64,000 nucleotides of DNA. It comes from Petrosia ficiformis (Eukaryota; Porifera; Demospongiae; Haplosclerida; Petrosiidae). The first letter of the stretch is position 1, and every line of letters starts with the position of its first letter. The DNA lies in NCBI GenBank assembly GCA_947044365.1, contig OX345636.1, positions 12,419,309 through 12,483,308 on the forward strand, in the 5' to 3' direction. A program made the translations under genes and the position numbers. Positions 9,601 through 63,985 of the stretch are shown piece by piece. Below the pieces are notes generated by a model. That model saw nothing but the letters and a program-made list of their open reading frames with translations. It did no database searches and had not been told where the DNA came from.

Positions 9601-12600
9601 ATACATCGACACACACATTAATACATGTACATCCACACACACATTAATACATCCACACACACATTAGTACATCCACACACACATTAATACATGTACATCC
9701 ACACACACATTAGTACATCCACACACACATTAATACATTCATATACACATTAGTACATCCACACACACATTAATACATCTATATACACATTAGTACATGC
9801 ACATCCCTATGCAGTACATTAATACATTAATAATTAACATTAATACATCAATACATACATTACTACATCATTAATACATACATTAACACATCTACATGTA
9901 CATATACATTAATACATCAATACATACATGTACATATACTTCACTTGTACAGTATGCAGGGTATCATACAGCGTGGAGGAAGGGAGTTTCCATACTTATA
10001 CCAAATTTTTACCTCAGCATGCATGTGCATAAAATTATTAATCAATGACCCATGCTTTAGTCATTCACTCCCTCCATCAGTATATGGGAATACATCTACA
10101 ATATCAACTGAACAATACAGTCCCTATCTACAAAAAAACATTATAAAGCTGAAATACATGCTACTATAGCCTAGGCTCTAGCTCTATAAGATGGCAGTGA
10201 ACAAGAGCCTGTTCTGTACAGCACCTTGGATATCCTGATCTCGTTCCAAACCAGGAGCAGATCTTGGCTGTATTATTGTGTACTACAAACTGATATACCT
10301 TCTAGTGACTATGTGTTATTTTGTACATGTGCAAACAGTTGAATCCAGGCTCTTTTTCTCCCACCATCTTGAGCCTGGGTACAAAGCTAACATGCTGCAT
10401 TTGTGTAGTTTCAAAGCTGTACACATGCAGGTTTAGTATGTACAGTATTTGTCAATAAAAGGTCACCATACAGTACAGTAATTACTCAGTAGTTTCATTA
10501 TCACACTACAGTAATTCAACAGTAGTTTTAACAGTAATTGGTGTACTGTAATTACTATACTATACTATACTGACAGTAGAACTAAGGTAATTATTGTTAC
10601 TGTATGGTGACATTTAATTCTGTACATGTACAGGATGTTATCGGAGATGTAGAAAGAAAGAAAGAAAGAAAGACACCTGAGTCAATGGAAAAATGAAAAT
10701 GAGAGTTGCCTCAGGTGGGATTCGAACCCATGACACTCTGTACTCCGGACAGATGCTCTACTAACTGAGCTACCAAGGCAGCTCAGCTGGCAGGGTCCGA
10801 ATCAAACATTTCATACGCCTGTATGAACAGGCTAACTTGACACTGGGCATTAGGTGAAGGCCGGGGTAATGAAACCACCAAAGACACCAACACCAAACCT
10901 AAGCATATACATGTACACATGTACATGATGTTATCGGAGATGTAGAAATGTACATGTGATTGTACATGTGTGCAGGATGTGTACAAGGGTGTGGAAACAC
11001 TGAACCAATGGCAGGAGATTTTAACTTATTTTCATCACTCTTGTCCTGCTCCCCATATACTTTGTATAAAGTTTAGTTTCAATTTACCAGACATTCACTA
11101 GACAATATCCTACATGATTGGCTATTTCCAAACACTGAGTGTGCGTAGGACAGTAAAAAGTAGACATTGTATGCATCTACTTTTCTGTATACATGTATAT
11201 GTAGCACATTCACATGTACATGTATATTAGTGTTGCTATATAATACATATACATTAGTGTTGCTATATAATACATATACATTAGTGTTGCTATATAATAC
11301 ATATACATTAGTGTTGCTATATAATACATATACATTAGTGTTGCTATATAATACATGTACATTAGTGTTGCTATATAATACATATACATTAGTGTTGCTA
11401 TATAATACATATACATTAGTGTTGCTATATAATACATATACATTAGTGTTGCTATATAATACATGTACATTAGTGTTGCTATATAATACATGTACATTAG
11501 TGTTGCTATATAATACATGTACATGTACATTAGTGTTGCTATATAATACATGTACATTAGTGTTGCTATATAATACATATACATTAGTGTTGCTATATAA
11601 TACATGTACATTAGTGTTGCTATATAATACATATACATTAGTGTTGCTATATAATACATGTACATTAGTGTTGCTATATAATACATATACATTAGTGTTG
11701 CTATATAATACATATACATTAGTGTTGCTATATAATACATGTACATTAGTGTTGCTATATAATACATATACATTAGTGTTGCTATATAATACATGTACAT
11801 TAGTGTTGCTATATAATACATATACATTAGTGTTGCTATATAATACATGTACATTAGTGTTGCTATATAATACATATACATTAGTGTTGCTATATAATAC
11901 ATATACATTAGTGTTGCTATATAATACATATACATTAGTGTTGCTATATAATACATGTATATTAGTGTTGCTATATAATACATGTACATTAGTGTTGCTA
12001 TATAATACATATACATTAGTGTTGTATGTACAGTATATAATAGTTTGACAATAATGACCACTTTTAGTTATAGTTATATATAGTACGACTAGTTTATCAA
12101 CTTTTAGTTAAAGTTGACTAAGGCTTACTAAAAGGGTTTTAGTTTTAGTTAACTAACTAGAATTGCCCATTATTGGCCAATTTTTATTTAATTTAGTTAT
12201 AGTTATTGCAATAGACTTGTAATTTAGTTTAACTGAAAGTCACAATGCCTTACTAAAACAACACATACATTGTCATGTACATGTACATGTACATTGTACA
12301 TATACATGTACATGTACATGTATTATTTACATGCAATTAGGCCCCAAGATGTGAGCAGCATGTTTGAAGGAGTGTGTGTATTGTGATAAGCTAAAGAGTT
12401 GTTTGGTCACTCTGGTGGAACTTTTATCTAAGGATTCTTCTTGGTGATTAATTCCAGTGTTTTAGACAGCAGAGAAAACAAGGAACTTAATATTCTACTT
12501 AAGAACAAGGAAGGATGCTTCCACTTACAACATAGCCTGCTGCATCTGAAACTGGTATTTGAACTGACCAGTTATAATTCAATTTAATAACCTTTCAATT

Positions 12601-15600: not shown

Positions 15601-18600
15601 TGTACTGTGCTGCACTGGACTCTACACTACTACAGTATATATTGTACAGCACAAGTATACATGTACATGTAGTTGTGGACACACTAATTAGTAACATTAG
15701 TATGGCTATTGTGCAATAACCATAGCAATGTTACTAATCAGTGATTTTTTTTATGTCCACAACATGTATACATGTACATGTACAATGTACATGTAGATGT
15801 ATAAGTAGTCCTGTACAATATATATGTACACATGTACATGTACATGTACATACAACATGTATCCAAATTTTTAATTACTATTTCCTACATGTATGTAGTA
15901 CAATGTGATTATGTACATATATAGTATGTTACTCATATTTTCAACATGAGTTCATAAACACACTTGTGAGATTTTCACTATTGCCTCAATCAATAGTAGA
16001 TCTATCAATAACAACATCTACATGTGATTATTACACAATACTGGCATCATACTACCAACAGTAAAAAAAATAATTATACCTTACCAACAATATCAGTAGT
16101 ACTGTTGATAATAATGTAGTGTATATTGACAATACAGTAATGTGCAATACAGTACTGTACTGTACAGTACTATACTGTACTGTACTCTACTCTACTCTAC
16201 TGTACTCTACTCTACTGTACTCTACTGTACTATACTGTACTGTACTGTACGGTACGGTACAGTACAGTACAGTACAGTACAGTATAGTACTATACATGTA
16301 TATGGCGCACCATTGGCCCAAAGAGCTTCTTATTTGGAACTGCACAGTTCTCTCTTTGGGCCAGACAGCACAGTTAATTATGATTATAATTACTGTCATT
16401 AACAGCATTAACTCTTTGTTAATGACTCAAGGTGTATCTATTGTTGAGCCAATTTGGCCCATGCTTTAAAACTTAGATACCAAATGTACAATGTACATGT
16501 ACATGTATATTAATTGAAGCAAGAAAAGCATTTTTATAAATGAAAGAGTATGTCACAATGGAAAAAGCACATTGGGACAGTACCTTAGCAACATAATTAA
16601 AGCAACCACTTCCACATAACAAGTTGTTATGTGGAAGTGGTTACATGTATAGTAATATATTAACCACAGAGGAAAAGAGTCATAGGGAAAAATAAATAAA
16701 CGGACATCTTGTGAAATCAAAAACAAATGCATAATTATAATTATAATAATATACACATATTATTATAATATACATTATAATAATAATTATGTGTATATTA
16801 ACCAATAAATAAATTGATATATTAATAAATAAATGGACATCTTATGAAATAGTAAACAAAATAATGCATAATTATAATTATAATAAATTATAATATAATT
16901 ATAAGTGTATATTAGGAAATTAGGAAATTAGTCATAAGAAAATAAATAAATAAATAAATAGTTGATATCCTAAAAAATACATATTTCAAATATGATTTTA
17001 AATGAACTCATAATTACGTGTATATCGAAATTGAACTATTTATGAAAGATAAACATGTACATGTGTATTGCGATGTACATGTACATGTGTATTGTGATGT
17101 ACATGTACATGTACATGTGTATTGTGATGTACATGTACATGTGAATTGTGATGTACATGTACATTTGTATTGTGATGTACATGTACATGTGAATTGTGAT
17201 GTACATGTACATTTGTATTGTGATGTACATGTACATGTGTATTGTGATGTACATGTACATGTGTATTATGATGTACATGTACATGTGTATTGTGATGTAC
17301 ATGTACATGTGTATTGTGATGTACATGTACATGTGTATTATGATGTACATGTACATGTACATGTGTATTGTGATGTACATGTACATGTGTATAGTGATGT
17401 ACATGTACATGTGTATTGTGATGTACATGTACATGTGTATTGTGATGTACATGTACAGTACATGTGTATTGTGATGTACATGTACATGTGTATTGTGATG
17501 TACATATACATGTGTATTGTGATGTACATGTACATGTGTATTATGATGTACATGTACATGTACATGTGTATTGTGATGTACATGTACATGTGTATTGTGA
17601 TGTACATGTACATGTGTATTATGATGTACATGTACATGTACATGTGTATTGTGATGTACATGTACATGTGTATTGTGATGTACATGTACAGTACATGTGT
17701 ATTGTGATGTACATGTACATGTGTATTGTGATGTACATATACATGTGTATTGTGATGTACATGTACATGTACATGAGTATTGTGATGTAAATGTATTGTG
17801 ATGTACATGTACATATAATGTAACATTCATTTGTATACAGGTCTGATGTATTACTGATATTTACAAATTTGTCCAACTATTCAGTTGGATGAAAGATTAC
17901 ATATCTTAAAATATTACATGTGTATGTCAATAAAATGTTTAAATAATAGTTGGCTTACTGAAAGGGTTTTAAATTTAGTTAACTATCCATTATTAGACAA
18001 TTTCATTTTATTTAGCCGCCATAGTTAATACAGTAGACTTGTAATTTAGTTATAGTTTAGTTAACTAAGTCACAATATCTTACTGTAAAGGGTTTTAGTA
18101 ATAGTTATAGTTAACTAAAACAACACTAAAGTACATGTACATGTGTACATGTACATGTATAGTGATAATTAAATTGGAAGGAAGTTTATAGTATTACGTG
18201 TACTTGTGTACACATGATCATCCTATCAGGAACTATGCATGCAATAATTAAATTAGGAGGAAGTGTACTATGTAGTGAATCTATACATGTAATGTACATG
18301 TACATGTATATATACTGGAATTCCAACATGAATATGGAAATGATTGTTAACTGAACAAATGAATTGCCTTAGCATAATGTACACATGTATAGTAAAACTA
18401 TTTTCTCAAACTTTTAGTTATAGTTATAGTTAATTAACTAAATAATATTAGGCTAATTAAAGGGTTTTAGTTTTTAAAAGTGTCCATTATTCACACTAGT
18501 TTAGTTAGCTGTAATTATTACAATAGACTTGTAATTTAGTTATACATGTACAAGTAGTTTAGTTTATACATTAGTAGTCAAACACTACTACATGTATGTT

Positions 18601-21600: not shown

Positions 21601-24423
21601 TACTTGTACTTATTGTAGTACTTGTACTGTATTTGAATACATCTATGGTACTTGTACTTGTACTTGTACTCATTGTATTACTTGTACTGTACTTGAATAC
21701 ATCTAGTGGTACATGTACTTGTACTTGTACTTGTAGTACTTGTACAGGTACTTACATTTTGTTTGTAGTACTTGTACTTGTACTTGTACTTGTAGTACTT
21801 GTACTTGTACTTGTAGTACTTGTACTTACTTAACTCCTTACAAATGTACTTGGCCCCATGCCTGACTACATGTTTTGAGGTCATCACACACTTTCAATAC
21901 CAGTAACCTACATGTACATGTACTATACACTGTATATGGTAAGTTGTAAAACTAATTTCCAGCTTAAACTTTCCCTCGCTAATTTCAGTTCTATTGAAAT
22001 CATTTCCATTGTTAATGAAACTGAAGATATGGAAAACTGTCTGCCAAATTAACTGAACAATTAAGAGTCTCTATCATTATAAGAGATTCAATCAATTAGG
22101 TGAGTGGGTGTACGTTTCTATGGTCCTGCAATCCTGCGTTTGGTCGGGTTTAATGTCACTCTGAGGCAAAGCCAAGGAGTGGCTAGAGCACACTTAAATG
22201 GGCATTTAGACTCCTTGCCCATACTGAGATTTGTGTAAATACATAAAAACAATGTTAATGGACTTCTAACCATAAACTGTATTCATAGTCCAATTTTATA
22301 CATAAACCTTTCTGCTTGACAAAATGTAATAGTTATTGAAGAATATACTACATCTAGTTACCATGGCAATGGAGTCTAAATATATATGTACATGTATATA
22401 TTATACATGACAACCAATAGTGTGGACACTAGCAAAATACAGGCCATAGAAATCTAGCTTTCTGAAGATCAGTCATAAGGCGTCTAGAAGATATTGATTA
22501 AACTGTTTGGTAAACATTACCGTAATTCTATTACACATTCAATAATACATTGTCATTGAGGAATGAATAGTTTTATATATAGATATTACAATAAGGCAGT
22601 CATAAGGCGTCTAGAAGATATTGATTAAACTGTTTGGTAAACATTACCGTAATTCTATTACACATTCAATAATACATTGTCATTGAGGAATGAATAGTTT
22701 TATATATAGATATTATAATAAGGCAGTCATAAGGCTTCTAGAAGATAATGTTTGGTAAACATTACCCTAATTGATATATTGTCATTGAGGAATGAATAGT
22801 TTATAGATATTACAATAAGGCTTACTGAAAAGATTAACTTCATAAATAAGGATTAACTAATTAAAAATTACCAATTATAACTGAAATTTTGAGTAGGAGT
22901 GATATCAGTGAAATATAGTATCCAGAAATTGTTCATATATTGAGGATTTGAAATTTGGTATACACATGCACTTCACCCAATACATATGAATCAGGGAATA
23001 TTTTTGATATCTTAAACTTTTCTCTGTTTGTGAAACACATCTTGAGCGTGAGTTGGTGTTAAGTACTAGTATAGTACTTAACACCAACATAGTGTTTTTG
23101 ATAAGTTAGACTTGTAATTTAGTTATAGCTATAGATAACTAAATTAAATTAATTAAACAACACTAATAATTATTGTAAGTTAGAGCAATATGACTCTCAG
23201 CATTTAACAATTATTAGTTAAAGATATGGCTATGTTAAGATGGCTTCATAACAGTTTATTCTTACTTGTAGTATTTTACAAAACGTATTGCAGCTCTGTA
23301 CCTACAAGATAACTACTCAAGTCTGTGAAAAGATTCTTTCGACTACAATTTCAAATTATCCAACCCTCGTAGTTACAAAGAGCTCACAATGCCTTACTAA
23401 AAGGGGTTTTAGTTACAGTTATAGTTAACTAAAACAACACTAATTTGTATGTGACACAAGAATATAAATATAAATATATATACATGTAATTATGAACATA
23501 CTACAATATGTATACAATGTCTATCCAATTCCGTAGAAGGTAATTATAGGGATGGCCCTGCAAGCTATACAAAATATTTTAGATTTTATAACAACAGATT
23601 ACAAAGTGTTATTAATAAAACAGGAGATGATGTAACTATTAAATATACATGTATACATGTACAAGTAAAAACAAAGATTAGAAAGTGGGAAATGAGATGT
23701 TAATAACAACAACTAATTGAACAAACAATGACAAGTACTAAGAGATCAAACAAGAAATAAATAGATTATGTATTACATTGTAGCTGTTATTAACATATCA
23801 TTTCCTACTTCCTATATAGACTATGTTTTATCTTGTACATGTATAGTACATGTATGTCAACCATACAGTGTGTATGTACAGTACATGTACAGTATGTCAA
23901 CCATACAGTGTGTATATACATGTACATGTACATGTACAGTATATCAACCATACAATGTGTATGTACAGTACATGTACAGTATGTCAACCATACAGTGTGT
24001 ATGTACAGTACATGTACAGTATGTCAACCATACAGTGTGTATATACATGTACATGTACATGTACAGTATGTCAACCATACAATGTGTATGTACAGTACAT
24101 GTACAGTATGTCAACCATACAGTGTGTATATACATGTACATGTACAGTATGTCAACCATACAATGTGTATGTACAGTACATGTATGCCAACCACACAGTA
24201 CAGTAATTACTCAGTAGTTTCCACTCTACAGTATAGTCTGTCTACATTCACAATGACCTCAAATTAGGATATGATGATGTTATACATTTATGTAATACAC
24301 ACTGTACATGTATGTATGTATATACATGTGCGTTGGTAGAGCATCTGTCTGGAGTACAGAGTGTCGTGGGTTCGAATCCCACCTGAAGCAACTCTCATTT
24401 TCATTTTTCTATTGCCTCAGGTG

Positions 24424-24454
<31 letters not shown>

Positions 24455-27400
24455 ACATCTCCGATAACATCATGTACATGTATATAGTTTATTGTCATAA
24501 GGTTAACTAACACATGATTATACTGTAATTCAATAATGAAGCAGTGGATAGAATTTGATATACACAAAAAAGAGAACAGGAAGGATAAATACATGTGTAT
24601 GTTAAAATGGTGCAGGTAAAATAATTCTTGGTCATTCCAAAATAAAGTTATGAATATTCTTTAGAGGTCATGGTGAACGTGAATGACCTTTAGGTCAACA
24701 GTAGTATTATCAGTAATCAATGTACATGTACATGTATTTGTCAAAATGTTGAAAGTCACAGTAGTGAGAGAGTAATTACTGTACTATACTGACAGTAAAA
24801 TTAAGATAATTACTGTTACTGTATGGTGACAATTGCTATGCTCATCTTGCTTCACATTGAAAATAAATGCTAAATTGTATGAATAAGCCTGAAACAGGTA
24901 AGTGAAAAATGTTGGTAGATATTGCTTAGAGGATTATGAAGTGCTGATGGTTGTCTGGCTGTTGTAGCTCAATGGTGAGAGCACTGGTGGCTGAAGTCAG
25001 TGGGCATGGGTTCAAATCCCAGTGACTACTTAGTACTTACATTTTTCACTTTCTTCTTTCAACATTATTCAATTTATGATTTATGGTAACATTTTATTGA
25101 CATGTACTGTATCATCTGTAATTTTCAATAAAAGGACAATTTCCTATAAAATAAATGTGACCAAACACTTGTCTACAATCAGTGAGAATCATCCATCATT
25201 CAGCTAACATTCTGTACATGAGGTAAGTTACATGTATTATTAAGTTTCTAGGATGCTAATTTCATTGACTTCCTTACAAAATGATGACGAGCAAGGGTAA
25301 GAATTTAATAAAAACTATTCTGTTCCTTTTCAAAATTAGGTCATACATAATTAATGTCACATTCCTTTTAGCTTCATGTCATTATAATGAAACTACATGT
25401 ACATGTACATGTATTATTATTACAATTCCATATGTACATGTACTTGTGTATAGCCCCAAAGGGCTGAAACTAGACACCATATTACAGGCATTGACACAAG
25501 CTACATGTATATATACATATATAAACTACCTTACTTCATTTATTTTATGCAAATAATAATAATTTATTATTTGTAATGATTGTGTTTTGTCAGAAAAGAC
25601 CCAATTCTTTCCTCTAAAATAGTAATTTTAATGTGTGAATATTGTCACCTACATGTACACATGTACATATACATGTACATGTACATGTACATGTATATGT
25701 ACAAGTACATACATAACTGTAGATTATACGCTACTGATAAAACAGAACCCACATAAGTTCATTGCCATGTACATGTCTATGTATATATACAGTACATGTA
25801 CATCTACACTGTATTATGTAACTACTTCCACTATTGTCACTTACATGTACATGTAGATATATACATGTAGTACGTACATGTACTGTACATGTGTACATAT
25901 ACAGTACATCTACACTGCTTGGTACATATACAGTACATCTACACTGCTTGGTACATGTATTATGTATGTACATGTACTGTATATATACCGTGCATCTACA
26001 TTGCTTGCTGTAGGTATTATACGAACTGTTAGAATATTGTCACTTACATGTACACATATACAATTAGAGAAAACAAAAGCCATGTAAACAATGTGTGTAA
26101 TCCAGGGTGGCTGCTTCAATAACCTCTAATGCATGATGGCTGCTTTAATATCCTCTAAGCCTAGGTGGCTGCTCTAAGCCAGGGAGGCTGCTCTAAGCAG
26201 TGGTGTAGTTATATTGAAACTATTTTAGGGTTATTAAAAGGGTTTCAATTATCGGTCAATTTTCATTGCTGCAAACTTCAAATTTAGTTTCGTTAACTAA
26301 AACTCATAATGCCTTACTAAACAGGGTTCAGTTACAAAGGTCATTTGCATTCACCCTGTAAACAGAAAATGTTCATAACTTAAGTTTGGAGTGGCCAACA
26401 ATCTTTTATCTGCATACACATGTACTTCCTGTTCTTATTAAATTTCAATCCATTAATTCATTATTGAGTTACAGTATAATCATGTATTAACCTTATGACA
26501 TTAAACTATACACTATATTATATATACAGTCATCACATCCTAATTTTGAAGTAAACATCAATGCGACAGACTTTAATTAACTAAACCAGCACTAAGTTGT
26601 TTCCCAATCCTCATACTATTGCAATTAAATGCATCATTATTGTAGAAAGAAATTACTGATACAAAACATTCCTAGTTTCAGGAACTGGATACAGACTACA
26701 CTTGACTATGATACATGTACATGTATACTGCTCAGTTTCAGTTCCTCAAACAGTATAGTCCACAGCATTTTATCAATGAAATAACAATGATAATTAAATG
26801 GATGTATATCAGTGTTTTTGATAAGCCTATATGGCGCACCATTGGCCCAAAGAGCTTCTGATTTGGCACTGCACAGTTAATTATGATTATATTGTCACTA
26901 ACAGCATTAACTCTTAGTTAATTGGCTCAAGATTTATTCTCAATGGTGCACACACTAACCATTTTTGAGCCAATTTGGCCCATGCTTCAAAACTTATCAA
27001 TAAATCTGATGTACATGTACATGTAACATGTAAATCATTTGAACAATAGAATAAATTACCATACATGTCTTCATTAAGAATGCTATTTACATGTACATGT
27101 ATGTAATATAGCACAGTACTACATGTACATTGTGTATAATTATTAAGTTTACATACTTTGGTGAGAGCTACACCTTAATAAGGTGATAGTCAACTGTATT
27201 TCTAACCAGTCATAGTACTATCAGAGTAATGTGTGACTGACTTCCTTGTACTGTACATGTGTAGCACAGTACCTTAGTACTGTGCTGTAACTTAGTATTG
27301 TGCTATCACATGCACATGAATATACTACACAGTACTACACCTTAGTGTAATACTGTTTAGTGTATTCAAAGTACAATGTACTTAACTCACAGTGTACACT

Positions 27401-34281: not shown

Positions 34282-34965
34282 ATGGCTGTATTTCTTTCTG
34301 GACAACTAAGACCTTCAAAATCTAAACAAGCAATTATATTCAGAATGTTCTTTGTCTTCATCTCTCTAAGTACTCTAGTGTCAATTAGTAGTGCAGCTCC
34401 AGCAGCTACACAAAGTGGATTGGGTACCACAGAACTTCCGACGACCGAAAATAGTGGACTCGAAACTTCGATATCGGTAGAAAATCACTTGCTGAGAAGA
34501 TCAACGGAGAACTCTACGAGAGTTAATGTATGTCTACCGGTGACATCAACGGAACTCATACAAAAACTACGGAATACCAATGAAATTTACAGTCATTTAC
34601 AAATTATCCCACTGGCATTGAGCGGGAGTGTTTTCACTGTAGGTGTACTGGATGGAACAATCGATCTCCTCAACAACAAAGAACTCTCTGAATGTGTAAC
34701 TACTTATGCACTAAAGGAACTTCCAAACCGCTTCCCTCGATATGTTTTAGTTACAGAGTGTGATCTATCATGTAATAATGATACAGAAAAATATAAGCAG
34801 CTAGAAAATAAAGAGTTAAAGAATCAGTTCAATGATTTAGCTATTGGAGTAAACACATTACACTTAGAAGACGATTGTGACGAGGGTACTGGAAGAGAAA
34901 TATGGGGTTACAATGTAGACGACGATGTCGTATTTATTTCACAATGCACATTATTCGAGAATTAA
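34282..34965 (+). CDS. Secreted IL-17-like cystine-rich protein 1
   Basis: Single-exon frame of 227 codons. A hydrophobic signal peptide spans about residues 22-39 (MFFVFISLSTLVSISSA, cut before APAA). The second Met (34345) would give a more typical short signal; both Mets have A at -3. A Ser/Thr-rich linker leads to a basic site, LLRRS (70-74), suited to proprotein cleavage. The following domain has cysteines at 84, 138, 160, 164, 199 and 222, with NRFPRYVLVTEC (149-160) and DDC, then VVFISQC near the end. The order matches the IL-17 fold: R-[YF]-P-x-x-[VI] strand, Cys, short gap, Cys, long gap, Cys, final strand with Cys. It lacks the upstream Trp and the second Cys of the terminal C-x-C, so it is a divergent member. 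It lies 1 kb from a closer IL-17-like gene on the same strand, sharing the NRFPRY core. Poly(A) signals AATAAA are at 35045 and 35072. Confidence 0.68.
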   Translation: MAVFLSGQLRPSKSKQAIIFRMFFVFISLSTLVSISSAAPAATQSGLGTTELPTTENSGLETSISVENHLLRRSTENSTRVNVCLPVTSTELIQKLRNTNEIYSHLQIIPLALSGSVFTVGVLDGTIDLLNNKELSECVTTYALKELPNRFPRYVLVTECDLSCNNDTEKYKQLENKELKNQFNDLAIGVNTLHLEDDCDEGTGREIWGYNVDDDVVFISQCTLFEN

Positions 34966-35890
34966 TTAAATAACTATCATTTGTCAATACAATTATTATA
35001 TTATATGTATATTATATATTATATAGTTTGGCAGAATATATATAAATAAAAAAATATCATGTATAGCGACCAATAAACCACTTATTAATTGTGTAATAAA
35101 AATATTATTAATTTTTAATCAATTATATTATATATATATATATATATTATTTTTTATATTTTTCGAACACACACAATCTTTTGTATATATTATAAATATA
35201 TTAATTTGTTATCATTTAATGTCATACCATATATTTTTGCAATTTTTAATGCTTCAGAGCAGCTCAGTAACAATTCTTAGTAATATATACCACATTATAA
35301 TTATTATTATATAACTCAAAAAACTTAAAATCTAAACTTTTTTTAATGAAAATATAATAGAACTTTAATTTAAAACTATATTAATTTAAATAATTTACAA
35401 AAAAAACCTCAGGATTTAGTGTATTATGCACTGGCCATGGCCTGATTTTACAATAACAAATGCATGTACTATACAATTAGCTATACATTATTATTAAAAA
35501 TGAGCAGGAAAGTTGTGCAGAAGTACAAAAAATGATTATAAAGTGTATCTCTTTTTACGTTGTGTTTTTTACAAAGAAGTTGCTATGCTCTGTGGCATTT
35601 AACAGCTGTCAATTAGTTTGCATTCAATTAATAATAAACAATTTAATACATGCCACTAATAATGTAAACATGTAACATTATACTCTCCACTTTCAATATA
35701 CATATCCAGTGAAGGGGAAACTGAATCTATTGCAACATATGCAACAGTTATTACAGAAACATCCTGAACAATAATAATTCCTTATATACAATTTTATGTG
35801 CATGTGTATTCTCCCTTCCTTGTTTTTTTTTATTTATTTTTGTTTGTAGGCAATTTTGCTGTAATAGAGCTTCTTCTTCATGTAATATAA
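34966..35890. other. AT-rich intergenic spacer
   Basis: Contains the putative 3' end of the first IL-17-like gene, a (TA)n run at 35129-35147 and poly-T tracts. I see no exon, repeat family or structured RNA in it. A promoter for the second gene presumably lies near 35700-35890, but no motif identifies it. Confidence 0.4.
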
Positions 35891-35996
35891 AATGGATCAG
35901 TTTGGAGATATTAATCAAGTCACAAAGAGATTGGTGAATAAATCAATATTACTTACAGTAGAGTGTATATATACATATTCGAATTCGTATTTCAAA

Positions 35997-36842
35997 ATGT
36001 CTCATCGATTTTCTATTATTTTAGTTTTAGTTTTCCTGATGGTACCTTGTTATTGCATTGCAAAGCCGTTATCGGGGAATCACGATGATAATTTAGGCGA
36101 TGATGTTTATTCTGAAGGGGAGAAAATAACTAGTTCTATTGGAACTAGAACGTCTGGAAAACACGAGATGAAGTTTATGGATACAAAACAAGCAATCGAC
36201 AACTCAGAAGAAAGTGATCTTTCCAGTGGGCGGTTTGCATTCCGTCGATTAAGACGAAGATCAACGTTCAAAATACCTGTGAGCCAAATACCAACAATTC
36301 AATATGAAGAAAATTGCAAACCCCCCAAAACTCTGATAGATAATCTAAATGAAAATCCAAACACCGCAGCCATGATTTCCCTCTCCGAACTTGCAGAGGC
36401 TCAAGAAGTATACAGAAGCCAAGGAACTACTACTACTACTACTACTACTACAGTAGCATATCAGAGCATCCAAAAGAGGTCAGATACAGAATACACAGAA
36501 GCTGAAAATGTTTGTGCTGATGTTCTCAAAAGATTGAATCTCTCCGTTACTCCAAATTCGGATTGTCCATGGAGATATACATGTGATTATGTAGGAAACA
36601 GATTTCCAAGATATATCATACAGGCAAACTGTACCAAATACTCGTACTGCCAAATAGGGTGTGGAAATGTCGAAAAAATTTGCCGGCCAATAACTGCACA
36701 AATGACTGTACTATATGGAGATTGCAATGTTTCATCAGGTGAAGAAGAAGAACAATATCCTGGAATTAGAAATCCTGAATCAAATTGGTCAACTGAGCAA
36801 TTTGAAATTACTTTAGGATGTAAGTGTACTCCACTTGAGTAA
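35997..36842 (+). CDS. Secreted IL-17-like cytokine 2
   Basis: I chose the Met at 35997 (caaaATGt), which gives a classic signal peptide MSHRFSIILVLVFLMVPCYC. The frame is open to a Met 35 codons upstream (35892), but that extension is not signal-like. The 281-aa product has an acidic pro-region, a furin-type site RRLRRRS (83-89), a Thr run (145-153), a second dibasic site QKRS (159-162), then the cysteine domain. The domain reads DCPWRYTCDYVG (189-200), NRFPRYIIQANC (201-212), C218, C222, C229, MTVLYGDC (ending 243) and FEITLGCKCTP (C275, C277). This is the IL-17 signature: P-W, then R-[FY]-P-x-x-I-x-x-A-x-C, x-C, a V-L strand, Cys, and a terminal [VL]-G-C-x-C. Several N-glycosylation sequons are present (NLS, NCT, NVS, NWS). 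IL-17 family ligands act as secreted dimers on IL-17 receptors; no receptor gene is visible here. Spätzle-like or other cystine-knot growth factors are the main alternative. An AATAAA lies at 37055. Confidence 0.75.
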   Translation: MSHRFSIILVLVFLMVPCYCIAKPLSGNHDDNLGDDVYSEGEKITSSIGTRTSGKHEMKFMDTKQAIDNSEESDLSSGRFAFRRLRRRSTFKIPVSQIPTIQYEENCKPPKTLIDNLNENPNTAAMISLSELAEAQEVYRSQGTTTTTTTTTVAYQSIQKRSDTEYTEAENVCADVLKRLNLSVTPNSDCPWRYTCDYVGNRFPRYIIQANCTKYSYCQIGCGNVEKICRPITAQMTVLYGDCNVSSGEEEEQYPGIRNPESNWSTEQFEITLGCKCTPLE

Positions 36843-37360
36843 TTTTATGACAGGGATAAAAGATTCTACTACTAGCAATATAAAACAATTATTATTAATT
36901 TTTGAAATTATGATTTACTTTTAATTATTTTTCATTTGTACAATATTTATAATTTTTAATCGCTTAAAAGAAACATGTTTATCAAAGTAACACAGCAACA
37001 CTGAACTCTTTAGCATATAAAAAAGGTTTAACTTCAAGTAGATATAAATTTATTAATAAAGATATAATTATAGTGTGAATAACATTGTAGTACATGAAAG
37101 TGGATTCTCATACTCTTTTTATAAACCAAAAGTGTATTAATGATAAGTATTCCTAGACATGCAACACTGAACAGTTCTGATCATATATAATAGTTTTCTT
37201 GCTTGTATTGTATAAACTTCAGTGAGTGGCAGACCACTCAGTCGTGTGTGATAAGGGTTCAGCATAGGTACTAAATTATGATTATATATATAATATATAT
37301 ATATCTATATATAATTATATTGTGTGCGTAAGTATGTTACAAGTGCTTCCATCTTTAAGA
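36843..37360. other. AT-rich intergenic spacer
   Basis: The 3' flank of the second IL-17-like gene, with (ta)n tracts around 37282-37320. No exon or recognised repeat was found. Confidence 0.4.
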
Positions 37361-37570
37361 CATCTGAATTGGAATTCAAACGTTTATACATATCATACAA
37401 GCAACCTGTCCAAATTCTCACCCTGAAGTAGAATGTGAAAATATTGAATGCACAAATGACTGTACTACACTAAGATTGCAATATCTGCTGAACAATAACA
37501 GTAAACTGGAAATAGTAATCCTGAATGAAAGTGGTCATATGATCCAAGTGAGGATATAAGTGCACTAGCT
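37360..37570 (+). pseudogene. Decayed third IL-17-like copy
   Basis: The DNA aligns by eye with the C-terminal half of the gene at 35997-36842. Matching blocks are atatcatacaagcaacctgt (gene 2: atatcatacaggcaaactgt), gcacaaatgactgtacta, then agattgcaat, gaaatagtaatcctgaat and gaggatataagtgcac. The segment between the first and second blocks has lost about 20 bp, and an in-frame TAA interrupts the strand corresponding to MTVLYGDC (gene 2 has TATGGA where this copy has CACTAA). The N-terminal half cannot be recognised. It is therefore a relic of an additional tandem duplicate. No restoring of the frame was attempted. Confidence 0.65.
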
Positions 37571-37574
37571 GGTA

Positions 37575-38160
37575 ATATTGTAATTGTCCAAAAAACATTC
37601 TGAATAAGAATGTTTTTCGGATAATTATAACCTATGATGTATGGCAATATTAATAATTATTGTATACAGCAATTTCAATACTGTTTTAATTTTAGTAATA
37701 GTAAAGAAATTAATCATAATCATAGTCATAATAAATCATTAAACTTATTAGGCGTCTATAGCAAATTTAAAAATACAACATTTATTTAATATACTTTCCC
37801 TTTCGTTTGTATAATTGTATCATCATTCCTGAATTTTGATTCAACTATTTTTCCAAGATCACAGCAGTAACCAGTTTAGTATTATACTGAATCTTAAAAC
37901 TAAATGGCATTAGAAAAAGCCTGCATATTGAATATTGCTACTTTTTCTTTGTACAATTTTAATAAACATTGCTGTCAGGGTCGATGTAATAATTCTCCAA
38001 ACCACTCCTCGACAAAGAACTCTCCACCTTTGCCAAACCTTTCTCCATGCAGATTTTGAGGTTTTGATCTCAACTGAAGTTAGAAACCCAAGAACTATGT
38101 ACTTGCTTATTTGCTTGCAGAGACCCAAGAGATTTAGAAACCTTCCTTAACAAAGTGGGT
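37575..38160. other. Intergenic spacer without recognised features
   Basis: AT-rich sequence between the IL-17-like relic and the formin 3' side. The stretch around 37980-38150 is more balanced in composition and has a 71-codon open frame (37935-38150), but it shows no domain and no splice support. Confidence 0.35.
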
Positions 38161-54100: not shown

Positions 54101-57100
54101 TATACATGTACATGTATACATGTACACTACAATTATTTGCATGTATATAATTATGTGCATGTATATAATTATGTATATATACACGTACATTTATTAATTG
54201 CACTACAATTATTTGCATGTAATTATGTCATGTACATGTATACATGTACACTACAATTATTTGCATGTATATAATTATGTATATATACATTGTACATGTA
54301 CAAAATGGCTTCATTGAGCACAGCCATAAAGTGTTTAGAACATTTTAGAGCAGCCATTTTGTCTTTGAAGAATAATCAGCCACAATGGCTTAGAAAAATA
54401 ATAATCAGCCACCATGGCTTAGAAAATAAGGCTTAGAAAATGAAGTAAAAATGAAACACTGAATGCCCAGTCTTGAGAACGGTGTGTTAAAGATCTTTGA
54501 TGGTTAGCCAACTCTCCCCACTCATCCAGTGTTGATATAATAAAAATAGCATATTTATACAACATGTACATAACTATAATGCATAATGCAACTCACAAAC
54601 AAAGAAGAGAAGTATAGAGGTGCCGTAAACTTAAGTTGGTCACATGTGCAAGGGCTGAGTTACACTAACTTCACTAAGCACCTGCTCTTATAAAAACAGC
54701 TGGCAATCCTTGACTACACATGGAACACATGCAAAGAAGTACTGATTAGTACTGATTACAAATTTGAAGAAGCATTGATAAGTACTATTCAATGTTGCTA
54801 ATTAACACCTAGTATGTCTGATAGTCACATTTCTTGTCAAGCCCAGCCTAACATTAATCAGCAACCAAACACCTTCCTCAACATGTACATGTACACGTAC
54901 ATGTATACATGTACATTTACTAACTGCACTACAATTGTTTGCATGTAATTATGTATATATAGATTGTTGTAGTACATATATACGTGTTCTCTTTGATCAA
55001 TGATTTGAGTTAGTTCTTCATATAAGTATACATGTAGAATGATATGTATAATATATACATGCTCTTATTGATGAGTTAGTTCTTCATATAAGTGTTTATA
55101 TACGTACATGTAGTATACATGTAGTATACATGTAGTATACATGTAGTATTATATGTATAATATATACATGTTCTCTTTGATCAATGATTTGAGTTAGTTC
55201 TTCATATAAGTGTTTATATACGTACATGTAGTATACATGTAGTATACATGTAGTATACATGTAGTATGATATGTATAATATATACATGTTCTCTTTGATC
55301 AATGATTTGAGTTAGTTCTTCATATAAGTGTTTATATACATGTAGCATACATGTAGTATACATGTAGTATACATGTAGTATACGATATGTATAATAATGA
55401 TATACAGCAGCTCTATAGTATAGGGTTATATAAAGATGTATTTGTTCTCACTCAGTTATTGGTTTATATAAGCATAATACTAGTTTGTTAGGATAATAAC
55501 TACAATACTATAGTGATACAATGTACATACATACACATGTACATGTACATGTACATGTATAATTATATTATTGATCACACCACTACTAGCAGATCAAATA
55601 TGCATGTACATATGTACATGTAAATGTTTTAGTTATAGTTAATTAACTAAGTATTGACAATTTTCCATTTTAGTTAGTTATAGTTATTACAGTACACTTG
55701 TAATTTAGTTATAGTTTAGTTAACTAAGGCCACGTTTACACAGAAACGGTCTGGCTGTATGTTGTACAAAACGCAAACTAATGTTTCCGTTTACGTCTCC
55801 GTTTACACGTAAACGCGTGCAATCGTTTTCACACCACGTGTAGATAAAACATAATGCCACCTAAGAAGGAGGAGAGCAAAAAAGAGAAGAAAAAGGAATT
55901 TGTTTGGAGCGATGACGAAGCAGAATTACTTTTAAACGTAGCAAATGACTATAAAGTCTCCAAGGCTGCTGAAAGCGTGGACTGGGAGTCAGTTAAATCA
56001 AAATATGATGACATTTGTGATTTGTTTATTGCTGCTCTACCTGAGAATAACAATAATGTGATGAAGGATTTTCCTCACAAAAAGGAACAAATAACAAAGC
56101 AGATTGTAAGTTCAAAATTAAAAGCAATAAGATTAAAGTTTCGGCAAGCAGTTGATTCAGGAAGGAGAAGTGGGCATGGACGAGTAGTAATGATTTTTTA
56201 TGAACTGTGTGAAAAAGTTTGGGGAGGTAGTCCGGCCACAGAGCAAATAGATGGAGGAATTGAAAGCACAGAATTGGTACCAAGGACATGTTAGATTCAC
56301 AAGGAGATACTTCATCTAATATTGGAGTTAATGCAGATATTCCTGTTGGTTATGAAATACTGTCCAATGGAGACCCTTTATTAGATGAAGAAGAGGAAGA
56401 TACAGAAGAGAGTAATGAGGGGAGAAGTGTGCCTACAAAAGAAACTGTGAAGCAAAGGAGAGAATTTCTTGATGACAAGTTAAAAAACTATAAACAAGAG
56501 AAGATGAAACGAAAACTCCCGGTTGATACACAGCTTTTAGGTTGTGCACAGGAAGAACTGCAGATTAAGAAAAGATTAGTGGAACAAATGGACAAAATGG
56601 ATAAAAAGTATGCTGAAAACATGGAAAGGATGTCCAGCAATATGGAAAAGCTCACTGAATCAATATCTGATGGCTTTGCGTTGTTGAAACAAATGATGAT
56701 GTATCAACAGCCCCCACCTGGTATGTACCACCCACAATCATCCTTCCACCCTTACATGCAAGGCTCTCCCCACTCGTATAACAATCGAATGCCAAGTTAT
56801 CCTTCCAGTAGTAGCTCCACCCCACCATCTCCCAACTTTGACATGTACGAAAACTAACAATTGTTTATTAATTGAATGAATTTTCCTATTTACAATATTA
56901 TTATTATAAACATTGAGATTAATGCTAAATCATTGAATAAGTGGTATGGCTCAAGGGTCAAAATAATTTGTAAGTATTCTTCTAATTCTTTTTTCTTCTG
57001 TTTCGTTACTACTTGCAAGTCGGTTAGTTGCTAATGGTGGTTGAAAGTCACGATCATAATTGATGGTCATCCTTACGGTTTCCTCATTAATGGATTCATT

Positions 57101-59607
57101 ATGTAATTCACAGTAGTTATGCAGTACAAAACAGGCATATATTACAAATGGTAATTCGTCTAAGTTGATATCCATCGCACGTCTCAGACACCCGAACCTA
57201 GCCGTCAATCGACCAAATGCACATTCTATAACATTTCTAGCACTACATAGTCTGTATCCAAAATACTGCTCTTGTCTATTTGTTCCACCCCCAGCATACT
57301 CCTTCATCAAGTAAGGCATTAATGGGTAAGCAGGATCCCCTATAATAAACACAGGTACATCACCATCAAGAATCTTTCGTCGACAAGGAGGTATTAGTTC
57401 ATGTTTCAAAAGGTGGTTTAGTCGGGAATTAGCAAACATTCTGGCATCATGAACACTGCCTGGCCATTTAACAACTACATCCATAAAACAACAACGATAA
57501 TCACATAAAGCCTGTACATTTAACGAGAAGCGCGATTTTCTATTAATATAGTCTGATGAATTCAGTAATGGCTGTTTTATTTCAATGTGGGTTCCATCGA
57601 TGGCACCTAAACACTGTGGAACTGAATATGCATCGTAGAATTTCAAAACTTTTTCCTTGACACTTTCTTCGGTCAAAGGGAGCTTAATAAAACTAGGTCC
57701 TAAGTGTGTGGTGATTGCCCATGACACTCTTCTAATTATAATAGAACAGCTAGCCCTGGAAAGTCCAAAAGCATTTGCTACTTTTCTCAGCCTCCCTTCA
57801 TCAGACAGATAATACAAAACTACAGCAACCTGTGTTTCCACAGAGATTGGACTACGCATATGAGTAGCTTGACGTTCAATATATGACCCAAGTAGGCTGC
57901 AGAGTTCAAAGAAACTAACACGAGACATTCTGAAATTCTCCCTCCACTCTTCCTCCAACATACTGCCATTTAAAAAGTTGTCCCACCATGTAGAGGTCCT
58001 ACCTGGTCTAACCCAAAATCTTTTTCTCTTTCTTTTCTTCTTGGGGCATTTTTTTCTGCTCGAATTAATAACTTGAGTAACTAACAGCTGCTTTTGATGA
58101 TATAAAGTTCTATACTCATTCATCATAGCCAGATTAACCTGCTGCAATACCAATAAACAGGATAACAACACCAGCAACACAACGATGTGCCTTTCCGACA
58201 TATTTTTCAATAGTCCACACCCCCAAACATCACGTTTTTCACGTTTACACAATGTTTCATTTGTTGCGTTTTCAAATGTTTCCAGTTTGAGTAGCGTCTT
58301 CAGAAGTTAACGTTTTCAACAGCATTTTCACCATTTTTGTGTAAACAGAAGGTGCATACGCAAAGAAAAGTTATTGTTTTCTACCAAAACGTTTCTGTGT
58401 AAACGTGGCCTAAGTCAAAATACCTTACTAAAAGGGATTTTAGTTATAGTTTAGTTAACTAAAACAACACTAGTATGTACATTTACATGTTCATGTACAT
58501 ATTATTGACCACATTACTATGAGTAGTATCAGATTCATATACATGTACGTGTAGTGCCATATATACATGTAGGTATATACTTACATGTACATGTACATGT
58601 ATATATCATTACTACTATACTAGTAGTGTTAGATTTCATATACATGTACATGTACATGTACATATTCACATTAGTATTCATGTATGTACATGTACAAGTT
58701 GACCACTACTATGAGTAGTATCAGATTTCATATATATGTACATGTACATGTAAATATGCACATTAGTACATGTACATGTAAATATTGTTGACCACTAATT
58801 AGTAGTATCAGATTTCATATACATGTACATGTAGTGCCATATAAGGGTATGTACATGTATGCATCTCCCATGATAATTATGTACATGTACATGTACCATG
58901 TAATGTATACATGTACATGTCATAATGGATGTCAATATGAATAGGTAAACAAATGATATACAATATGTATACATACGTATATGGCACAATTAATTAGCTA
59001 CATAGTGACTGCATCTACAACAAGCAATCAAATGCCATACATAGAGCAATTTTACAATTACAATTACATTGCTATCAATTTGTCTATTTTGCCACTGCAA
59101 TTTGGTATCCACAAATAGTAATCATTCTTGAATACCAAAATTTGTTCGTTTCCTGCACTGAACAGAGAGTATTTAAAGGTAAAATTAAAGTGTTCAAAAA
59201 TTGCTTTGTGATCAGCCAATGCCCGATAAATAAAGTGAATGTGAAACTGAACTGTATACGAAGTATATGGGGAGCAGGACAAGAGTGATGAAAACAGGAT
59301 CTGTATTCTGTAGGGATACTTTTTTCTCCATAATTATATATATTTTTAAATAATAATGTCACTGATGTATTAACCTGATATTGGCCTCCTTTCATCAGAT
59401 TCTATTTTTCTTGTTTCTTCCTGTTCAAGAGATTTCTTTAATCTTTCAATACTTACCTAAGAAATAAAATTATTCAAATAATAATTATTATAATAAAATA
59501 TTATGTAATGTTACAAGTTTATTATACATGGTTGTTCCTAGAGGACGCTAGTACAGAACCATTTTCATGGCCTGTAGGGCTATTGCTTTCTACGGGGTTT
59601 AATGTAT

Positions 59608-63433: not shown

Positions 63434-63504
63434 CTATAAAGAGAAACACATTAATACAAGATACAAGTACATTTATTTCATACAGATTCTGCAAAAATGC
63501 TGAA

Positions 63505-63985
63505 TAGTGAATGAATTAGCTGAAGAAGGCCTAACGGCTGAAACGTTCTTTTGAATAAATCATACATGTACATACAATGTAATATATTGACTTTGACCAC
63601 CTCAAGCCTGTAAAGTATGTTAACATTCACAATGCCAAGAAGGCCTAACGGCTGAAACGTTCTTTTGAATAAATCATACATGTACATACAATGTAATATA
63701 TTGACTTTGACCACCTCAAGCCTGTAAAGTATGTTAACATTCACAATGCCAAGAAGGCCTAACGGCTGAAACGTTCTTTTGAATAAATCATACATGTACA
63801 TACAATGTAATATAATGACTTTGACCACCTCAAGCCTGTAAAGTATGTTAACATTCACAATGCCAAGAAGGCCTAACGGCTGAAACGTTCTTTTGAATAA
63901 ATCATACATGTACATACAATGTAATATATTGACTTTGACCACTTCAAGCCTGTAAAGTATGTTAACATTCACAATGCCTCAAAAT
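63505..63985. repeat. 114-bp tandem repeat, about four copies
   Basis: The unit has gaaggcctaacggctgaaac, gttcttttgaataaatcata, gactttgaccacctcaagcc and ttaacattcacaatgcc. Copies start at about 63523, 63637, 63751 and 63865. 114 is a multiple of 3, so the 164-codon minus-strand frame is periodic and spurious. The last part (cattcacaatgcctcaaaatt) joins a family C terminus at the window edge. Confidence 0.95.

Follow-up and report, generated by a model that had tools for sequence, protein, structure and literature searches.

When did interleukin-17 (IL-17) signalling arise, and does it reach back to the sponges? The question is raised by a stretch of 64,000 nucleotides from the demosponge Petrosia ficiformis (Haplosclerida; contig OX345636.1, positions 12,419,309 to 12,483,308 of the forward strand; hereafter the window), in which two neighbouring genes, gene A and gene B, encode predicted secreted proteins with a common NRFPRY core. 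A preliminary description, made from the letters alone, had proposed a tandem cluster of IL-17-like cytokines in an early-branching animal, possibly a sponge, and the guess at the host was borne out. The analysis reported here points, with a probability of about 0.7, to a small tandem IL-17-like cluster in P. ficiformis, because gene A, a divergent paralogue, would stand in tandem with the gene B ligand and a downstream piece is a dead copy of gene B.

Published surveys place the origin of the family elsewhere. In the accessible text of a 2015 survey, an IL-17 was found in none of Amphimedon, Trichoplax, Hydra and Nematostella, and the earliest members are those of nematodes (PMC4517768); that of a 2021 survey reports none in Amphimedon and names Cnidaria as the earliest phylum (PMC8353272). 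Amphimedon was the sponge covered by both surveys. According to the same portion of the 2021 survey, a Pfam IL17 entry exists from Amphimedon queenslandica (A0A1X7VXB1). Like gene B, it comes from a demosponge and carries the Pfam IL17 assignment; unlike gene B, it could not be identified in its genome by the authors of that survey (PMC8353272). A 2026 preprint, as far as its available part goes, cites Chen et al. 2024 in dating the rise of the IL-17 pathway to ancient eumetazoans (PMC13105070). Among the matches listed in the literature, most of the subscription literature lying outside the scope, no title or abstract opening reported an IL-17 from a sponge.

The P. ficiformis assembly is chromosome-level; its published version, odPetFici3.1, is described in the accessible text as 191.25 Mb in 35 scaffolds (PMC12648040). 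The genome searched here comprised 191.2 Mb in 29 contigs, read in six frames.

Evidence for membership of gene B in the IL-17 family

Both genes were found where the preliminary description had placed them, 0.9 kb apart on the plus strand, each as one open reading frame (ORF; Table 1). The signal peptides and basic processing sites it had noted were also recovered, as hydrophobic leaders and dibasic sites in both genes. In gene B, an inner methionine at 35997 lies directly 5' of the strongest hydrophobic stretch (IILVLVFLMVPCYCI) and is the likely translation start. The gene B product has five dibasic sites, including RR at residues 118-119 and 121-122 and KR at 195-196.

The full gene B ORF matched Pfam IL17 at 33.9 bits with an expectation value (E) of 4.3e-8 by hmmscan, and the predicted mature chain at 36.2 bits, against a curated cut-off of 24. 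When the whole genome was searched in six frames with the IL17 profile, two places were returned, gene B and an ORF on contig C4, each at E 1.4e-6. Since the match reaches E 1.4e-6 genome-wide and 4.3e-8 by hmmscan, it is not due to chance. We take the IL-17 signature to consist of PW, NR[YF]P, C...C and a terminal GC-x-C. Gene B carries the whole of it, with CPWRYTCDYVGNRFPRYIIQANC and GCKCTP in the ORF, including the PW and the terminal GCKC to which the preliminary description had drawn attention.

Searches of PDB sequences pointed to the same family. As a single query, gene B matched IL-17F at E 0.012 as the full ORF and at 0.0028 as the mature chain, in an alignment spanning PW to C. A two-sequence profile of gene B and the C4 ORF matched IL-17F at 1.9e-4, the Torso ligand PTTH at 0.0049 and IL-25 at 0.85, and with an eight-row family profile all 25 PDB matches at E <= 10 belonged to the IL-17 family (best 2.5e-5). 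The predicted fold of gene B, a four-stranded model of low confidence, resembled IL-17A/F on fold comparison. A fold search of a viral library gave nothing at E <= 0.001, its top row being a poxvirus protein of NGF-like type (E 0.052). Spätzle, named in the preliminary description as a possible better match, was not among the hmmscan matches at E <= 10 for either protein, no search having been made with its own profile, and NCBIfam returned no relevant family.

Gene B shares with the IL-17 family (PF06083; IL-17A, IL-17F, IL-25) the order PW...NRFP...A-x-C, the terminal GC-x-C and a secreted precursor. It differs in the 10 cysteines of its predicted mature chain and in a long prosegment with RR/KR sites. 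These data firmly support gene B as encoding a secreted IL-17-family ligand, whose cleavage, dimerisation and pairing with a receptor are predicted.

The C4 ORF is a second IL17-profile gene. A profile of gene B and the C4 ORF, searched at E <= 1 against a database of 5.8 billion proteins, returned seven sequences (P0001-P0007), all with precomputed IL17 labels. P0001 is a near-identical copy of gene B in a public contig of 1976 bases and passes the IL17 cut-off. The C4 ORF is 96% identical to P0002 and 51-53% identical to five further relatives (P0003-P0007); on rescanning, the cut-off was passed by 6/6 of P0002-P0007. In contrast to the IL-17 family, the C4 type has no last cysteine. The C4 gene has neither the last cysteine of GC-x-C nor certain cysteines found in gene B after NRFPRY, a pattern that would fit the paired loss of both partners of one disulphide.

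No sign of foreign contamination was seen: the two window genes lie inside a 63-Mb sponge scaffold (C1), and their local guanine-plus-cytosine contents (0.307 and 0.328) fall within the range of the window (0.295-0.344).

Resemblance of gene B to Noggin and PTTH

Some results for gene B point to Noggin. Pfam Noggin matched gene B at 25.1 bits as the full ORF and at 24.0 bits as the mature chain, around its cut-off of 24.1, and the alignment of gene B with Noggin scored 84, a value reached by 0/2000 cysteine-fixed shuffles. Gene B, and perhaps gene A, could on this evidence be a Noggin-like cystine-knot trap for bone morphogenetic protein (BMP) ligands and not a cytokine that triggers SEFIR signalling. 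The motifs CP, RF-PRY, C[KR]P and the final CKC stand in register over the whole C-terminal domain of human Noggin, and gene B was the sole place in the genome that a search with the Noggin profile brought up (26.1 bits). Further, phmmer with the Noggin piece recovered gene B at 0.044, the best decoy standing at 0.37, and the z score of gene A was 7.7 with Noggin versus 4.3 with IL-17F. The human Noggin query matched Pfam Noggin at 162 bits; the IL-17F query was an 80-residue fragment taken from the PDB sequence match.

However, of the 211 positions of the Noggin profile only 92-210 are matched, and Pfam favoured IL17 for gene B by about 9-12 bits, making IL17 the best family in both full-ORF and mature form. 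Of the better match to another cystine-knot family that the preliminary description had foreseen as a refutation, Pfam gave none for gene B: Noggin is a genuine match but came second (25.1 bits, vs 33.9 for IL17). The C4 family, the nearest relative of gene B, is strongly IL-17F-like and lacks Noggin likeness. In cysteine-fixed shuffles, the scores of gene B with IL-17F (76), of gene B with C4 (117) and of C4 with IL-17F were each reached by 0/2000, whereas those of C4 with Noggin and of IL-17F with Noggin were reached by 537/2000 and 438/2000, no similarity beyond chance. The closest sequence to gene B is therefore the C4 IL-17 gene of the sponge, although gene B resembles both families and aligns about as well with Noggin as with IL-17F. 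The profile of gene B and C4 found IL-17F at 1.3e-5 and left Noggin outside the best 25 rows, which were mostly decoys. The 80-residue IL-17F fragment had no Noggin match in a Pfam scan at E <= 10, and no Noggin structure stood among the best 50 rows of either gene B fold search, a result that excludes nothing.

Gene B thus has in common with Noggin (PF05806) the cysteine register, the CKC end and a cut-off marginally passed by the full ORF, and differs from it in scoring lower than with IL17 and in having C4 relatives that lack the likeness. A Noggin-like trap appears improbable. According to the accessible text of a 2011 paper, Amphimedon and Mnemiopsis lack every known diffusible antagonist, Noggin included (PMC3169577).

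The weak PTTH matches bear on a further alternative, in which the genes are broader ancestral cystine-knot-like ligands akin to IL-17, Noggin and Trunk/PTTH, orthologous to none of them and perhaps using a different class of receptor, for instance a receptor tyrosine kinase. The two-sequence profile matched PTTH (PDB 5aoq) as given above, and Foldseek ranked PTTH 34th among IL-17s. In the available part of a preprint, the 2024 work of Chen et al. is cited for the view that domain shuffling gave rise to the IL-17 pathway (PMC13105070). In that work, the donor was reportedly a Trunk-Torso pathway. Against this, PTTH was not matched by the larger family profile: once more relatives had entered it, PTTH disappeared and only IL-17s remained. 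We regard an ancestral ligand of this kind as quite improbable, and an IL-17-family ligand as the preferred assignment for gene B.

Gene A and the downstream remnant

Homology to IL-17, claimed at first for both proteins, stood for gene B, in Pfam, family profile and low-confidence fold, and did not reach the same level for gene A. Several results speak against the membership of gene A. The Pfam scan of gene A returned 0 families at E <= 10, its ORF has neither the PW nor the terminal GC-x-C of the IL-17 family and of gene B, and the gene A family profile had no IL-17 among its PDB matches. The structure model of gene A had a predicted local distance difference test score (pLDDT) of 39.5, making it unusable and uninformative on the IL-17 sandwich.

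In gene A, residues 18-32 form a hydrophobic stretch that is weaker than that of gene B, and RR at 72-73 is the single dibasic site. Its database relatives comprise a near-identical sequence (P0008) and two that are 82% (P0009) and 63% (P0010) identical, and the 6 mature cysteines are invariant in an alignment of these three with the window copy. P0010 matches the opening 26 residues of gene A without a difference, despite 63% overall identity over a 206-residue query, which may reflect conservation of the leader or a recent exchange of sequence.

The common NRFPRY core could also have arisen by chance or convergence, gene A being an unrelated secreted cysteine protein. The failure to match Pfam or PDB IL-17s and the unusable model fit that explanation, as does the gene A family profile, which placed gene B at 0.024 (best decoy 0.37) and left the C4 gene among the decoys at 3.2. 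Yet gene A adjoins gene B on the same strand with an identical six-residue core, and the cysteine order C..C..NRFPRY..C-x3-C..C..C is common to both. A chance motif was ruled out, since a search for [NED]R[FY]P across the window in all six frames gave exactly two places, both of them inside genes A and B; the shared core of the preliminary description accordingly occurs in both genes and nowhere else in the window by that scan. The likeness between gene A and gene B is beyond chance, because 0/2000 cysteine-fixed shuffles reached its score, and hhalign of the two, from shallow alignments, gave a probability of 49 (E 1.7e-4). A profile of gene B with six relatives, including the C4 gene, recovered P0010 at 2.2e-5 and gene A at 0.0028, above all of 18,000 shuffled decoys (best 0.14), and a C4-family profile without gene B gave P0010 at 0.015 and gene A at 0.45 (best decoy 1.1). 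From these decoy-calibrated profiles, P0001 and P0008 were left out as near-copies of gene B and gene A.

An unrelated gene A therefore seems somewhat doubtful, though of real weight. The product of gene A is probably a secreted, divergent, IL-17-like protein, and gene A may tentatively be regarded as a divergent tandem paralogue of gene B, through a link that is weak but above the decoys.

Downstream of gene B, blastn detected a partial copy of its 3' part, 65.6% identical across 256 columns (E 9.6e-18). Stops, and repeat spacings that vary (777/754/746), break its reading frame, and the piece is a dead duplicate of the gene B 3' part. The cluster first described as ending at 37570 consists of two adjacent genes and this remnant, because that end reaches into the decayed copy.

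Candidate receptor and adaptors

A search of the same genome for SEFIR domains, which the preliminary description had suggested, returned three places above the Pfam cut-off, on contigs C3, C17 and C14. The C3 ORF matched SEFIR at 25.9 bits (cut-off 23) after a long hydrophobic stretch, as judged by eye, and is a candidate transmembrane SEFIR receptor. Upstream on the same strand lie a signal-peptide-like exon and fibronectin type III (FnIII)-like exons, also identified by eye. The fn3-like exon reached 13.8 bits with Pfam fn3, below the cut-off of 25, and matched nothing in PDB, and the first three putative exons when joined matched 0 families. The IL-17 receptor FnIII family PF16556 had no match in the genome, nor in the control genomes, so that its absence is not shown, and PF16578 had one sub-threshold place with stops, away from the C3 locus, and no match in the control genomes. 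Against PDB, the C3 ORF matched a bacterial-type SEFIR at 0.34 and otherwise unrelated rows.

On C17 and C14, an ORF with a SEFIR domain is followed, on the same strand, by one with a Death domain. The C17 ORF matched SEFIR at 42.4 bits and also reached the TIR_2 cut-off at 28 bits. Both loci look like CIKS/MyD88-type adaptor candidates. Near the C14 locus, a 295-residue ORF (L008:7515-8402, minus strand) matched the caspase family Peptidase_C14 at 18.1 bits, below the cut-off of 21.4. Two ctenophore genera abbreviated in a source on SEFIR are presumably Bolinopsis and Hormiphora.

In its accessible part, that source reports SEFIR in Mnemiopsis and Bolinopsis and not in Hormiphora (PMC11797021). 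For the sponge Dysidea avara, the available portion of another mentions a single SEFIR sequence in its text but lists two in a table (PMC12909245). Placozoans have a transmembrane SEFIR protein and a SEFIR-plus-Death protein, compared to CIKS and MyD88 in the accessible text (PMC6321704), the same domain sets as the receptor and adaptor candidates here; unlike P. ficiformis, Trichoplax had no identified IL-17 ligand in the available part of the 2015 survey (PMC4517768).

In the mechanism that we propose, each ligand would be made as a preproprotein, lose its signal peptide and be cut at a dibasic site to release the mature chain, which would fold into a disulphide-braced IL-17-like sandwich and dimerise. 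The dimer would bind a transmembrane SEFIR receptor, for which the C3 ORF is the candidate. Inside the cell, SEFIR-SEFIR contact would then recruit SEFIR-plus-Death adaptors, such as the C17 and C14 candidates, and lead to NF-kappaB-type signalling.

Age of the family

The sequence evidence suggests a greater age for the IL-17 signalling family than published gene surveys give it. The bearing on the origin of IL-17 signalling that the preliminary description had foreseen is real, and it was partly anticipated by the Amphimedon Pfam IL17 entry, as the accessible text of the 2021 survey indicates (PMC8353272). With IL17-profile genes on two large contigs (C1 and C4) and SEFIR matches in the same genome, an origin before the sponge split becomes directly testable.

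The double likeness of gene B to IL-17 and Noggin would form a sequence link between immune and developmental ligand families. On a more far-reaching reading, gene B would serve as a living bridge that joins the cytokines of the IL-17 family to Noggin, an antagonist of BMPs, two signalling families that are as a rule considered separately, and the ligand, the SEFIR receptor and the Death-bearing SEFIR adaptors would all predate the sponge split. This we consider unlikely but worth stating: if it were true, the sponge would have kept a descendant close to the ancestor from which an immune cytokine and a developmental morphogen trap both derive.

Table 1. Coordinates of the cluster and of related loci elsewhere in the genome (positions are those of the window unless a contig is named)
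Feature	Position	Strand	Basis
Gene A ORF, 227 residues	34282..34965	+	One open frame; alternative start possible at 34345
Mature gene A chain predicted from the RR site, 154 residues, 6 cysteines	34501..34962	+	Predicted cleavage
Gene A NRFPRY core	34726..34743	+	Six-frame motif scan
Gene B ORF, 316 residues, IL-17 family preproprotein	35892..36842	+	One open frame; Pfam IL17
Mature gene B chain predicted from the KR site, 120 residues, 10 cysteines	36480..36839	+	Dibasic site 195-196; predicted cleavage
Gene B Pfam IL17 domain match, profile positions 3-80 of 81	36564..36830	+	Profile search
Gene B NRFPRY core	36597..36614	+	Six-frame motif scan
Pseudogene remnant, partial tandem copy of gene B 3' part	37390..37601	+	blastn; frame broken
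Second IL17-profile gene, about 190 residues, one open frame	C4:4788607-4789140 (L002:1495-2076)	-	Pfam IL17
SEFIR ORF then Death-domain ORF	C17, L007:4555-6538	+	Pfam; putative pairing as one gene
SEFIR ORF then Death-domain ORF	C14, L008:4307-6666	-	Pfam; putative pairing as one gene

Additional features of the window

A 451-residue transposase ORF (56954-58306, minus strand; DDE_Tnp_4, 104 bits) faces two coding-like ORFs (with 55848-56854, plus strand) that match no family above the cut-off, an arrangement as in a two-gene DNA transposon. A tRNA-Ser (GGA) gene lies at 10705-10780 on the minus strand, and two weaker Rfam tRNA matches, not called by ARAGORN, lie at 24330-24390 and 24958-25030 on the plus strand. 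Long arrays of short-unit repeats occupy about 11080-12110, 17000-17860 and 63480-63980, the first two of which are open in several frames.

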